Source of the DNA: Chthonomonadales bacterium
GTDB lineage: Bacteria; Armatimonadota; Chthonomonadetes; Chthonomonadales; CAJBBX01
DNA: 64,000 nucleotides
Direction of reading: 5' to 3'
NCBI GenBank assembly: GCA_013360745.1
Contig: JABWBA010000003.1
Span: forward strand, 1-64,000
Under the pieces are notes generated by a model. The model was not told the DNA's origin and made no database searches. It was given only the letters and a program-made list of their open reading frames with translations. Position numbers and translations under genes: made by a program. This document shows, piece by piece, positions 36,791 through 43,778 of this stretch. Numbering within the stretch: position 1 is the first letter of the stretch; every line of letters starts with the position of its first letter.

Positions 36791-38233
36791 GTGACCTCCG
36801 CGCAATCCTCAGGCCGGACCGATCTGCCCGACGCCGCCGCAGTCATCCTGGCCGCTGGCAAGTCGACGCGCATGAAATCCAGTTTGCCCAAACCGCTCCA
36901 TCCTCTTGCGGGAGCCCCGATGACGCGGCACGTCATTGACGCCTGCCGCGCTGCTGGTATAGCACGGATCGTCGTCGTGATTGGCCACGAAGCGGAACAG
37001 GTCCGTTCAGGATTGGGCGAAGACGTCGAGTACGCCCATCAGCCCACGCAGCGAGGGACTGGCCACGCGGCTCTGTGCGCTCAGCCCACTCTGGGCAGCT
37101 TCCGCGGCCCGATCGTCTTCATTGCCGGCGATGTTCCCCTGATCGAAGCCGATACGATCCGCGATCTCATTGCCGCTGCGACACAGGCCGATGGCTCCTC
37201 GTCAACGGTCTGCGGTGCGATGCTCGTCGCAACATCCGATGATCCGACGGGTTACGGGCGCGTCATCCTTACCGATGACGGTTCTGTCGAACGGATCGTG
37301 GAACAGAAGGACGCTAATGAGGCCGAGGCCGCAATCCGTCTATGGAATCCCTCCGTCTACTGCTTCCAATCGGACGCGCTATGGCAGAGGCTGTCCCGGA
37401 TCGGTTCCACCAACGCCCAGGGAGAGCAGTACCTGACCGATGTGGTCGCCCTGACCCGCGACGACGGCGAGCGGATACTGCCTCTGCACGTTGCCGAGGA
37501 TGAGGTCATGGGCGTCAACACCCGGGTCGATCTGGCTGAGGCAGAACGGTTGATGCGACGACGAATACTGATCGGCCTGATGCTGAGTGGGGTCACGATC
37601 GTCGATCCGTCGTCGACCTACGTTGATGCTCAGGTGACCATCGAACCGGACACCGTGATTCATCCCAACTCGTATCTGTACGGCCGAACGCGAATAGGCG
37701 CCAACTGCATCGTCGGCCCGATGGCCCTGCTGCGAGATGCGCTCATCGGCGACGACTGCAGGATTCTGGCTTCACAGATCAGCGAATCGACGCTTGGCTC
37801 CGGCGTCCGTGTGGGTCCATACGCGAATCTGCGCCCTGGATGCGTGATCGGTGACAGAGCGAAGATCGGCGACTTTGTCGAGATGAAGAACGCCACCATC
37901 GGCTCTGGAGTGGCGGCCTCCCATCTCAGTTATGTCGGCGACGCGATCGTTGGTGATCGTACGAATATCGGCGCCGGTACGGTTACCTGCAACTACGACG
38001 GTGTGGACAAACACCGAACGGTGATCGGCAACGACGCCTTTATCGGATCGAACACGGTCATCGTAGCCCCCCTTGCGATCGGCGACGGCGCTCTTACGGC
38101 GGCTGGAAGTGTGCTGACGCGGGATGTCCCGGCAGACGCTCTGGCCGTCGCGAGAAGCCGTCAGGAGAACAAAGAAGGTTGGGCTCGACGGAAGCGCAGC
38201 AGCAGAACCGCGAAGGAGGTCGACGGTGGATGA
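36791..38233 (+). CDS. glmU: Bifunctional GlcNAc-1-P uridyltransferase/GlcN-1-P acetyltransferase
   Basis: VILAAGKSTRMKSSLPKPLHPLAG; left-handed beta-helix C-terminus GAGTVTCNYDGVDKHRTVIG; GTG start with upstream AAGGAG. Confidence 0.96.
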   Translation: MTSAQSSGRTDLPDAAAVILAAGKSTRMKSSLPKPLHPLAGAPMTRHVIDACRAAGIARIVVVIGHEAEQVRSGLGEDVEYAHQPTQRGTGHAALCAQPTLGSFRGPIVFIAGDVPLIEADTIRDLIAAATQADGSSSTVCGAMLVATSDDPTGYGRVILTDDGSVERIVEQKDANEAEAAIRLWNPSVYCFQSDALWQRLSRIGSTNAQGEQYLTDVVALTRDDGERILPLHVAEDEVMGVNTRVDLAEAERLMRRRILIGLMLSGVTIVDPSSTYVDAQVTIEPDTVIHPNSYLYGRTRIGANCIVGPMALLRDALIGDDCRILASQISESTLGSGVRVGPYANLRPGCVIGDRAKIGDFVEMKNATIGSGVAASHLSYVGDAIVGDRTNIGAGTVTCNYDGVDKHRTVIGNDAFIGSNTVIVAPLAIGDGALTAAGSVLTRDVPADALAVARSRQENKEGWARRKRSSRTAKEVDGG

Positions 38234-39185
38234 TTTAGGGCTCTTCTGCGGCAATGCCAACGAACCTCTTGCCCGCGCGATCGCTTTGGAGATGGGCGTC
38301 CGGCTGGGCGATATGCATGTCCGGAGTTTTGAGGACGGCGAGATCGGCGTAAAGATCAATGTGAGCGCCAGAGGTCTTGATGTGTTCATCGTTCAACCAA
38401 CCTGTCGGCCGGTGAACCAGAACCTCATGGAGCTGCTCATCATGATCGATGCCTTCCGCCGCGCCTCGGCGCGAAGGATCACCGCCGTATTGCCCTACTA
38501 TGGTTATGCTCGACAGGACAAGAAGGTCAAACCCCGCGAACCCATCACTGCGCGTCTGATCGCGAACCTGATCACGATCGCTGGCGCGAACAGGGCGCTC
38601 TGTCTCGATCTCCATGCTGGACAGATCCAGGGTTTTTTCGATATACCGGTCGATCATCTTGCTGCCGGACCGTTGATGGGCAACGCCCTCCAGAAGAGAG
38701 GGCTGGCGGGGGATGCCATCACGGTCGTTTCACCCGATGTTGGCGGCGTCGCTCGAGCTCGTTCGCTCGCAGAGCAGCTCCAATCGCCGCTCGCGATCAT
38801 CACCAAACGTCGTCCGGAAGCGAATCGGGTCGAGGTGCTGGAAGTCGTAGGCAACGTCGCGGGCCGTGTCTGCGTCCTGGCCGATGATATCATCGACACC
38901 GGCGGATCGATCACCGAAGGCGCGGCCAAACTTCTCGAACTTGGCGCCCGAGAGGTGCATGCCTGCTGTACCCATGGCGTACTGTCCGGGGACGCACTGG
39001 AGAAAATCGAACGTTCGCCGCTGGTCTCGATGATCGTCACGGACACCATCCCGCTGCCGCCAGATCGGCCGAAGGGGAAAGTTCAGGTGATCAGCGTCGC
39101 GAAGCTCCTGGCCGCCGCTATCGAGTGTATCAACCGGGACGCTTCGGTGAGCAGTCTGTTTGAGGAATCAGCCCGCTTTGCCTAG
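38226..39185 (+). CDS. prs: Ribose-phosphate pyrophosphokinase
   Basis: GTG start overlapping the glmU stop; RSFEDGEIGVKI, PYYGYARQDKK, LADDIIDTGGSITEGA. Confidence 0.96.
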   Translation: MDDLGLFCGNANEPLARAIALEMGVRLGDMHVRSFEDGEIGVKINVSARGLDVFIVQPTCRPVNQNLMELLIMIDAFRRASARRITAVLPYYGYARQDKKVKPREPITARLIANLITIAGANRALCLDLHAGQIQGFFDIPVDHLAAGPLMGNALQKRGLAGDAITVVSPDVGGVARARSLAEQLQSPLAIITKRRPEANRVEVLEVVGNVAGRVCVLADDIIDTGGSITEGAAKLLELGAREVHACCTHGVLSGDALEKIERSPLVSMIVTDTIPLPPDRPKGKVQVISVAKLLAAAIECINRDASVSSLFEESARFA

Positions 39186-39218
39186 CATCCTGTAGCCGGG
39201 ATGAAGACCTTCCCATCC

Positions 39219-39410
39219 AAACCGCCCCGCGACGCCGTGTGTTCCCGAGCCCAAGAACCCGCATAACACGGGCGGATGTGAGCCGGTCGCCTTCGCGATT
39301 GCCTTACGGCCTGCCACTCAGGTTGTCCGAGAACCCACTCCATTGGTAAGGCGTTGGGTATGGGCTCGCAGGTACATCACCAACGTCTGCAGGGCGGCGG
39401 ACGTTCGTCA
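39219..39410 (-). ncRNA. ssrS: Candidate 6S RNA
   Basis: About 190 nt intergenic RNA with long closing stem CCGCCC-UGC-(A)-GACG/CGUC-GCG-GGGCGG (39384-39397 with 39222-39234), 8-bp stem CGAGCCCA/UGGGCUCG (39361-39368 with 39246-39253), side hairpins in a central bubble; TATAAT immediately upstream on minus. Boundaries approximate. Confidence 0.55.
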
Positions 39411-39416
39411 CCATCT

Positions 39417-39422
39417 ATTATA
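39417..39422 (-). promoter_or_regulatory. -10 element (TATAAT) for the candidate 6S RNA
   Basis: Plus ATTATA at 39417-39422 = TATAAT on minus; no good -35 found. Confidence 0.5.
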
Positions 39423-39467
39423 CTACGCCTCTGGCTTACAAATCCGTTACGGAACCCATCGATCCTA

Positions 39468-40460
39468 TCATCCGACATCGACGGGCCTAGCGGGCCCGCG
39501 AAGCCAGCGCTCTACGATCTGGGTCTCTCGTAATGTCGGTAACCTCAGATCCTCTACGGGATGTCCTCCGAGTGCGGCTTCAGGTATGAGACCGACGATC
39601 TCACCATCGCCCTCGGTCACGGTCCTACCCGATTCCAGCACTGCCGCATTTCGACGATGGATCATCCCCGCAATCTGTTCACGGACAACGGCGATCGGCG
39701 TCCGATCCGGACGGGTAAGGTTCAGAGAGACTTGCGCCGCACCCGCCGTTGGAAGCCAGAGCCCCAGCGCACGGACCCCATGGAGGCTCATCGTTGTTGT
39801 CCTCTCAGCTCGTACTGCTGCCGCTATCCATCGCGCATCCGACTCATTGCCCGAGGCGAGACCGATATTATAAGCGACCAACGGCCTGCGAGCCCCGACA
39901 ACGACGGCCCCGAGCGCTGGAGATGGCTCGCCCAGATCGGGCAGCATCCGGTGAAAGTCCGGTATCCCAGCCCCTCGAGATGTAGCCCCGACAGCCCGAC
40001 GGATCTCCGGCAAGGCGCTCGGCCTGTCTGCACTCGCGGCCGCTCCATAGAAATAGACACCCAGACCGATCTCGAACGCCAGAGACGCGGCTACCCGGCG
40101 GGCGAGTACGGCACATTCGCGTAGGGTGATCAGAGATATGGGCGTAAACGGCACGACATCGACGACCCCCATTCGTGGGTGCGCTCCCTGGTGCTGCCGC
40201 AGATCGAGAAGACATGCGGCGCGGCGGGCTGCCGCAAGAAGGGAATGGCCAACGGGCTCCGGCGAGCCCAGCAGGGTGAGCACCAACCGGTTGTGATCGC
40301 GATCCGAGGAGTAATCCGCGACGACCGAACCGGCATGTCCCATGGCTGCCGACACGATCTCCTCGACCAGATTCACCCGGCGCCCTTCGCTGATGTTGAC
40401 CGCGCATTGAACGATCGGGCCTCGCGCATCCAGGAGGGGTTGTCCAGACAGTGGAATCAT
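39468..40460 (-). CDS. ftcD: Glutamate formiminotransferase (single domain)
   Basis: VQCAVNISEGRR, DRDHNRLVLTLLG, GAHPRMGVVDVVPFTP; no cyclodeaminase domain. Confidence 0.9.
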   Translation of the reverse strand: MIPLSGQPLLDARGPIVQCAVNISEGRRVNLVEEIVSAAMGHAGSVVADYSSDRDHNRLVLTLLGSPEPVGHSLLAAARRAACLLDLRQHQGAHPRMGVVDVVPFTPISLITLRECAVLARRVAASLAFEIGLGVYFYGAAASADRPSALPEIRRAVGATSRGAGIPDFHRMLPDLGEPSPALGAVVVGARRPLVAYNIGLASGNESDARWIAAAVRAERTTTMSLHGVRALGLWLPTAGAAQVSLNLTRPDRTPIAVVREQIAGMIHRRNAAVLESGRTVTEGDGEIVGLIPEAALGGHPVEDLRLPTLRETQIVERWLRGPARPVDVG

Positions 40461-41856: not shown

Positions 41857-42557
41857 CGGCGCAGTCGTCCGGTCTTACCGTCCGTCGCCGGCTCTGCCCC
41901 GTGGCAGGGCTCCGGTACATGCGAGACATCGTTGACGAGGGCTAACGAAGCCCGCTGCGGACCATATTCCACCACGCTGAGCGAAGCGTTGTGCAATCGA
42001 AATCCGAGCATGGCCCGGGCTGGCACACCGAGCGCCTGACAGAAGAGAGCCCTGAGGCTTCCTCCATGCCCGACGACCAGGATCGTCTGTCCGGCGTGGC
42101 TCTTGACGATTTCGTCCATCGCTGAGGTCATCCGCTCCGCCACCTGTTCGAGCCGTTCGCCATTAGGCGGGCGCACCCGCCATGAATCCGACCGATAGGC
42201 TTCGTAAAGTTCACCTTCGCCCCGCGCTGCGATATCTTCGACAGTCAGGCCTTCCCAGTCGCCCAGCATCGTCTCGCGCAGCGCACGGAGCTGCCGCAGT
42301 GACGGTCGGTATGCGCCGGCAACGATCCGTGCGGTTTCTACAGCTCTGGAGAGATCGCTGGAATAGACGGCGTCGATCCGTTCCCCTTCGAGTCGATGGG
42401 CTAGCGCGGTCGCCTGCCGTATTCCCGCGGATGAGAGCGGGATATCGGAGGCGCCCTGCATCCGCCCGATCGCGTTCCATTCGGTCTCGCCGTGGCGCAC
42501 GATCAGCGCTCGGACACGCCGCTCGGGTCGCGGGCACGAAAGATCACACATCGCCAT
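41853..42557 (-). CDS. Histidine phosphatase family protein (phosphoglycerate-mutase-like)
   Basis: LIVRHGETEWNAIGRMQGASDIPLS; LVVGHGGSLRAL. Confidence 0.93.
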   Translation of the reverse strand: MAMCDLSCPRPERRVRALIVRHGETEWNAIGRMQGASDIPLSSAGIRQATALAHRLEGERIDAVYSSDLSRAVETARIVAGAYRPSLRQLRALRETMLGDWEGLTVEDIAARGEGELYEAYRSDSWRVRPPNGERLEQVAERMTSAMDEIVKSHAGQTILVVGHGGSLRALFCQALGVPARAMLGFRLHNASLSVVEYGPQRASLALVNDVSHVPEPCHGAEPATDGKTGRLRR

Positions 42558-43719
42558 CGCGGATAAATCCGATGGGATCCCCGTTTGGAGCGAGCCGCAC
42601 CTGTCCGAACCGGATCGTAGAGGTCATCGCATAAGAGTGTATCGCGGTCCTCAGGGTAATCTGCCGACGAGCCGAGTCCAGCCGTTCGAGGATTCCGAGC
42701 CCGAGCATTCGATCATCACCGTCATATAGACCGACCAGGAGCCCGTCGAGATTCGCGGCCAACGTTAGCGCGGTCTGGGAGATGCCGTAGAGCTGCATCG
42801 CCGCTGAGGCTAGATCATCACGATCGACGGCCCTGTCAGCGACGACACATAACCGATTCCGGACTGTTTCCGCATACCCAATGCCGCAGCCCAGCCTTCC
42901 GGACAGCTGGCGGAGCCCGGGAACCGGTACTGATCGACCAGAACCGATCCAGGTACCCCGCAGGGCCACATCATCCAGATGCCAGGTGCGCGGTTCTGCG
43001 CCCTCCAGAGCCTTGCCGAACTTCCAAGCACGGCGCTGCGCACGCATCGCCTGCGAACGGATGCGAACCGCCGGATCCGTCTGTACTATGTGCAGGCTCG
43101 GACGCCGGGCTGTCCGGAGCGTTCGCGCAAGCCATCCATAGGCGGCGTCAGCGGCCTGATCGGGTGTCTCCCCCCTTCGCGGCCGGATCATCAATACGAC
43201 TCGATCGGGATCAAGAGCGCTCAGCTTCGCCTCCTTCAATCGGACAGACCAGCGCGTATCGGCCATGCCGGTCGTATCGCACACGATCATTCGAGCGTCT
43301 CGGACTCTTGCTTCGTGGACGATGCGACACACCGCAGCAAGGTGCTCGACCTGCGCAAACTGCGGTGTCACGCTTCCTACGAATGCCGACGCCACAGCAC
43401 GAAGATCGCTAAGCCGCTGAAACGGATGCTCCGGCATCGCCAGAGAGACGCAGCCGGGCGGGCCGATTTCCGACTGCCCGACATCCGCATCAACCACGCC
43501 AACACGCATCCGCTCAGCCACGCCAACCTTAACTAACTCGGTGCAAAACGTTGTCTTCCCGGTATCGGATGCGCCGAGGATCAGAATCAGACCATGCCAT
43601 TCGCGTGACTCTCGCAAAACCGAGTTCCACTCTGGCTCCGGCCCTGTCGCCTCATCCAGCGTTGGACCATTGACGGATCGATCGTCGGTCGGTATGATGG
43701 TCGGAGCTTCACTAATCAT
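42544..43719 (-). CDS. Clp1/Grc3/Nol9-like P-loop polynucleotide kinase homologue
   Basis: Walker A GASDTGKTTFCTELV, VVDADVGQSEIGPPGCVSLA (Clp1_P-type motif), MIVCDTTGMADTR; start MISEAPTI at 43719. Confidence 0.75.
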   Translation of the reverse strand: MISEAPTIIPTDDRSVNGPTLDEATGPEPEWNSVLRESREWHGLILILGASDTGKTTFCTELVKVGVAERMRVGVVDADVGQSEIGPPGCVSLAMPEHPFQRLSDLRAVASAFVGSVTPQFAQVEHLAAVCRIVHEARVRDARMIVCDTTGMADTRWSVRLKEAKLSALDPDRVVLMIRPRRGETPDQAADAAYGWLARTLRTARRPSLHIVQTDPAVRIRSQAMRAQRRAWKFGKALEGAEPRTWHLDDVALRGTWIGSGRSVPVPGLRQLSGRLGCGIGYAETVRNRLCVVADRAVDRDDLASAAMQLYGISQTALTLAANLDGLLVGLYDGDDRMLGLGILERLDSARRQITLRTAIHSYAMTSTIRFGQVRLAPNGDPIGFIRDGDV

Positions 43720-43778
43720 GGGACTCCCACCCGGGAAGATCCGGCAGCGAGCGCCATGGACCAATGGAGACCGACGGT

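Follow-up and report, generated by a model that had tools for sequence, protein, structure and literature searches.

A 6S RNA gene just under the Rfam cut-off in a Chthonomonadales bacterium

Identity of the locus

Nucleotides 39220-39398 on the minus strand of the window (the whole 64,000-nucleotide stretch of DNA analysed, from a Chthonomonadales bacterium) almost certainly constitute the single 6S RNA (ssrS) gene of the host. The assignment was based on homology to the Rfam 6S model (RF00013), on a fold and strand derived from covariation, and on the conserved position of the locus next to prs in some members of the family. The locus is a real 6S RNA of the well-known kind, and on present evidence its mechanism holds nothing new. 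As the 6S RNA of a poorly studied lineage, lying under the default Rfam cut-off, it would stay unannotated, though it is single-copy and conserved throughout the family. Alignments of its homologues could be used to improve the Rfam seed. Coordinates are collected in Table 1; nucleotide n of the RNA corresponds to window position 39399-n.

The locus is like the 6S / SsrS RNAs of RF00013 in aligning with the full length of the model (1-187 of 187; 42.4 bits, E 2.3e-7), in its size of ~180 nt, in the parts of its rod and in its single copy. It differs in scoring 4 bits under the gathering score of 46.4 bits, which is a database inclusion cut-off and not a biological feature. The conserved core comprises 179 nt, within the 160-200 nt expected of 6S RNA. 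An Rfam scan of the window at the gathering threshold gave no match, the default scan being blind to the locus because its score is just under that value. A permissive scan of 39100-39550 (E up to 10) listed 6S RNA as the sole family, and a scan of the host genome gave an RF00013 match at this locus only. A first-pass annotation had read the locus as ssrS in a diverged lineage, naming RF00013 and covariation among homologues as checks. Both bore it out: the model matched over its full length, below the gathering score, and strong covariation was obtained among homologues, which RF00013 found in every member of the family.

It is very unlikely that the locus encodes a 6S-like RNA of the sort represented by actinobacterial Ms1, whose partner is core RNA polymerase and not the sigma holoenzyme. 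Ms1 has a shape resembling that of 6S RNA (PMC9130861), and the score of the locus lies under the 6S cut-off. Against this, it is the 6S model that the locus matches, the close homologues in G001, G007 and G010 score above its gathering score, and the permissive scan gave no other Rfam family, the presence of an Ms1 model in the library being unconfirmed.

Table 1. Features of the 6S RNA locus and its neighbours, in window coordinates
Feature	Position	Strand	Remarks
prs (ribose-phosphate diphosphokinase), convergent neighbour	38124..39185	+	Pfam, NCBIfam; conserved with glmU
6S RNA (ssrS) gene	39220..39398	-	RF00013 full-length match and lineage model R1
Closing stem, 3' strand (nt 154-179)	39220..39245	-	consensus helix 1
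Downstream duplex / P2, 3' strand	39246..39253	-	perfect 8-bp match with 39361-39368
Central bubble, 3' strand, with G+C-rich hairpin GCCCGUG-loop-CGGGUU	39254..39273	-	family alignment
Terminal (internal) stem and loop (nt 58-125)	39274..39341	-	place where a -35-like region would lie
Central bubble, 5' strand, with conserved AxCCAAC block	39342..39360	-	mostly unpaired in family consensus
Predicted pRNA start (nt C46)	39353	-	predicted pRNA 5'-GUUGGGUAUGGGCUCGCAGG; by analogy with B. subtilis 6S-1 start
Downstream duplex / P2, 5' strand	39361..39368	-	CGAGCCCA on plus, or TGGGCTCG-complement on RNA strand
Closing stem, 5' strand (nt 1-30)	39369..39398	-	pairs with 39220-39245
TATAAT, likely -10 element	39417..39422	-	18 bp upstream of core
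ftcD-like glutamate formimidoyltransferase, upstream neighbour	39468..40460	-	Pfam FTCD_N, E 2.6e-49

Conserved fold and strand

Homologues were gathered with RF00013 and aligned with MAFFT without structural information; the set leans towards the 6S structure because RF00013 itself was used for collecting it. RNAalifold recovered the 6S rod from the alignments. Across 19 aligned homologues 92.5% of cells were paired (81.0% in shuffles, 37-47% with slid structures), both sides had changed in 29 of 49 pairs (15.9 in shuffles, 11-18 with slid structures) and the covariation score was 0.393 vs 0.182; none of 500 shuffles reached any observed value. The same picture emerged when the 12 members of the family were taken by themselves. 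The architecture that had been proposed from the single sequence, a closing and a terminal stem with the central bubble between them, is thereby kept by covariation, and the conserved sequence blocks were found intact at the window copy.

In the alignment of 19 sequences the closing stem was paired in 93.7% of cells, with changes on both sides in 11 of its 22 pairs. The 5-bp core of P2 (consensus helix 2) was paired in 97.9%, and 4 of its 5 pairs show compensatory changes. P2 adjoins the bubble and is the CGAGCCCA/TGGGCTCG helix of the first-pass annotation, which, like the CCGCCC/GGGCGG and GACG/CGTC complementarities listed with it, was located exactly where it had been placed. On the 5' strand of the bubble A40, C42 and C43 are invariant. 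A 3-bp AAC/GUU helix crossed the bubble in the RNAalifold structure of alignment A1 and was absent from that of A2. From the 12-member family alignment, the terminal stem (helix 2 of that alignment) has 19 pairs, 93.9% of cells paired and both-side changes in 7, and the apical helix 3 has 4 pairs with 97.8% of cells paired. The hairpin on the 3' strand of the bubble has 7 bp, paired in 95.2% of cells over the 12 family members with 5 pairs invariant, and its motif is also visible in several more distant homologues. Of two small hairpins noted earlier, CCCG-N7-CGGG belongs to this conserved hairpin; TCGC-N4-GCGA falls in the terminal stem and loop and is no hairpin of the consensus.

The minus strand of 39214-39410 folded with z = -3.2, and none of 200 shuffles folded as well. 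Folding alone leaves the strand undecided, because the plus strand also folds strongly (z = -2.85), again better than every shuffle. Over the 19 homologues, 857 of 926 cells could pair on the minus strand vs 726 on the plus strand, with 144 G-U cells vs 13 A-C cells. Judged from these sequences, the G-U pairs identify minus as the strand of the RNA, and an RNA on the plus strand was ruled out by the G-U and A-C counts. The strand had previously been argued from a single U-G wobble in the closing stem (39391 with 39228); U-G was found there in 19 of 19 homologues.

Relatives and gene neighbourhood

Each of the other 11 family genomes has one full-length RF00013 match, several members reaching only 21-36 bits. 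Across 41 genomes a match was obtained in 27, above the gathering score in 15; across the phylum full-length matches were obtained in 98 of 201 genomes, above the cut-off in 81. Two lineage models were built, R1 from 19 sequences, the window included, and R2 from 24. R1 detected 6S RNA in 22 of the 31 genomes of the order, among them loci in G020, G026 and G029 that were outside its training set and were missed by RF00013 at the settings used. R2 detected 6S RNA in 107 of the 201 phylum genomes, mostly at the places found by RF00013, and recovered most of the RF00013 loci of the phylum; both models found loci beyond their own training sets.

No recognisable 6S RNA was obtained with RF00013, R1 or R2 in G013, G015, G016, G018, G019 and others of the order. 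Several of the negative genomes are nearly complete, one being a single 3.44-Mb contig, and sister genera have 6S RNA. This apparent absence from several genomes of the order would reflect loss or extreme divergence. Weak partial R2 matches in G021, G024 and G028, which lack 6S RNA, were rejected as chance because no sequence is common to them. Two full-length 6S-like loci per genome were observed in G031 (L007, L028) and in G045 of the phylum, as in Bacillus subtilis with its two 6S RNAs (6S-1, 6S-2). Among the papers searched, none connects 6S RNA with Chthonomonas, and the single one bringing in Armatimonadetes mentions 6S RNA once. The host assembly (G000) is rated 97% complete and a 16S rRNA gene was not found in it, probably reflecting an assembly gap.

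The arrangement of the window, in which the 6S RNA is tail-to-tail with prs and glmU comes after prs, recurs in 7 relatives. ftcD, scpB and scpA were absent near the 6S RNA in the relatives examined, and FtcD was rejected as a conserved neighbour, prs-glmU alone being common to the relatives. The neighbour of Escherichia coli ssrS, ygfA, is a folate metabolism gene, as is ftcD here; this link looks coincidental because the position of ftcD is not conserved in relatives. On the minus strand at 42544-43764, an ORF with a CLP1_P (CLP1-type polynucleotide kinase) domain (E 1.5e-25) overlaps the start of a same-strand run of phosphoglycerate-mutase-like, scpA, scpB and ftcD genes.

The placement between two convergent genes, with prs often adjoining, would also suit a structured region, either 3' UTR or terminator, that is common to prs and ftcD and resembles 6S RNA by chance. 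This reading is extremely improbable: the RF00013 match spans the full model, homologues exist in relatives with neither prs nor ftcD nearby, -10-like elements lie upstream, and the rod that covaries has the shape of 6S RNA.

Putative promoter and proposed mechanism of the 6S RNA

The TATAAT of the first-pass annotation was confirmed on the minus strand. An extended -10-like 9-mer (TGNTATAAT) was enriched upstream of 28 homologues, with a mean of 6.57 matches vs 5.11 in mononucleotide shuffles, at a distance that varies. If transcription began near 39410, the core would be preceded by a 5' leader of ~12 nt, and the spacing of TATAAT from the core suggests a primary transcript of ~190 nt. A sigma-70 consensus scan gave no good -35 match at the window copy, and a terminator consensus scan gave no intrinsic terminator there; in several relatives a hairpin followed by T was seen by eye downstream of the 6S RNA.

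The absence of a clear -35 and the score slightly below the gathering score are the features that speak for a decayed or non-functional gene. Compensatory changes keep the pairing, the conserved blocks are intact, and the locus scored 168 bits with R1, second best in the order (the window being in the R1 training set); decay is accordingly given a negligible probability.

The RNA folds as a long rod in which the central bubble separates the closing stem from the terminal stem, and this rod resembles an open promoter. 6S RNA acts as a mimic of an open promoter, occupies polymerase carrying the primary sigma factor and is freed by pRNA synthesis (PMC8876501). By homology, the window RNA would sequester primary-sigma RNA polymerase when nutrients are low, blocking ordinary promoters. 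On outgrowth the polymerase would use the 5' side of the bubble as template for a short pRNA, the adjacent helix would open and the RNA would be released.

The rod architecture of E. coli ssrS is that of the window RNA. The large 3'-bubble hairpin of the E. coli RNA arises on release only (PMC8876501), unlike that of the window RNA, which forms in the predicted structure of the free RNA. The latter hairpin looks preformed in the prediction, which is the situation in B. subtilis 6S-1, and not confined to release. It is unlikely, though less remote than the readings weighed above, that the RNA is a diverged 6S subtype in which a stable preformed 3'-bubble hairpin alters pRNA-driven release and that, in addition, 6S RNA has been lost or replaced by something unrecognised in parts of the order.

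For a 6S RNA of the known kind, analogy with B. subtilis predicts a pRNA that starts at nt 46 with GUUGGGUAU; the 5'-bubble block of the window RNA would suit a pRNA starting with GUU, a probable further likeness to 6S-1. When a pRNA template of at least 13 nt was blocked in silico, the adjacent helix opened and the 3' side rearranged.
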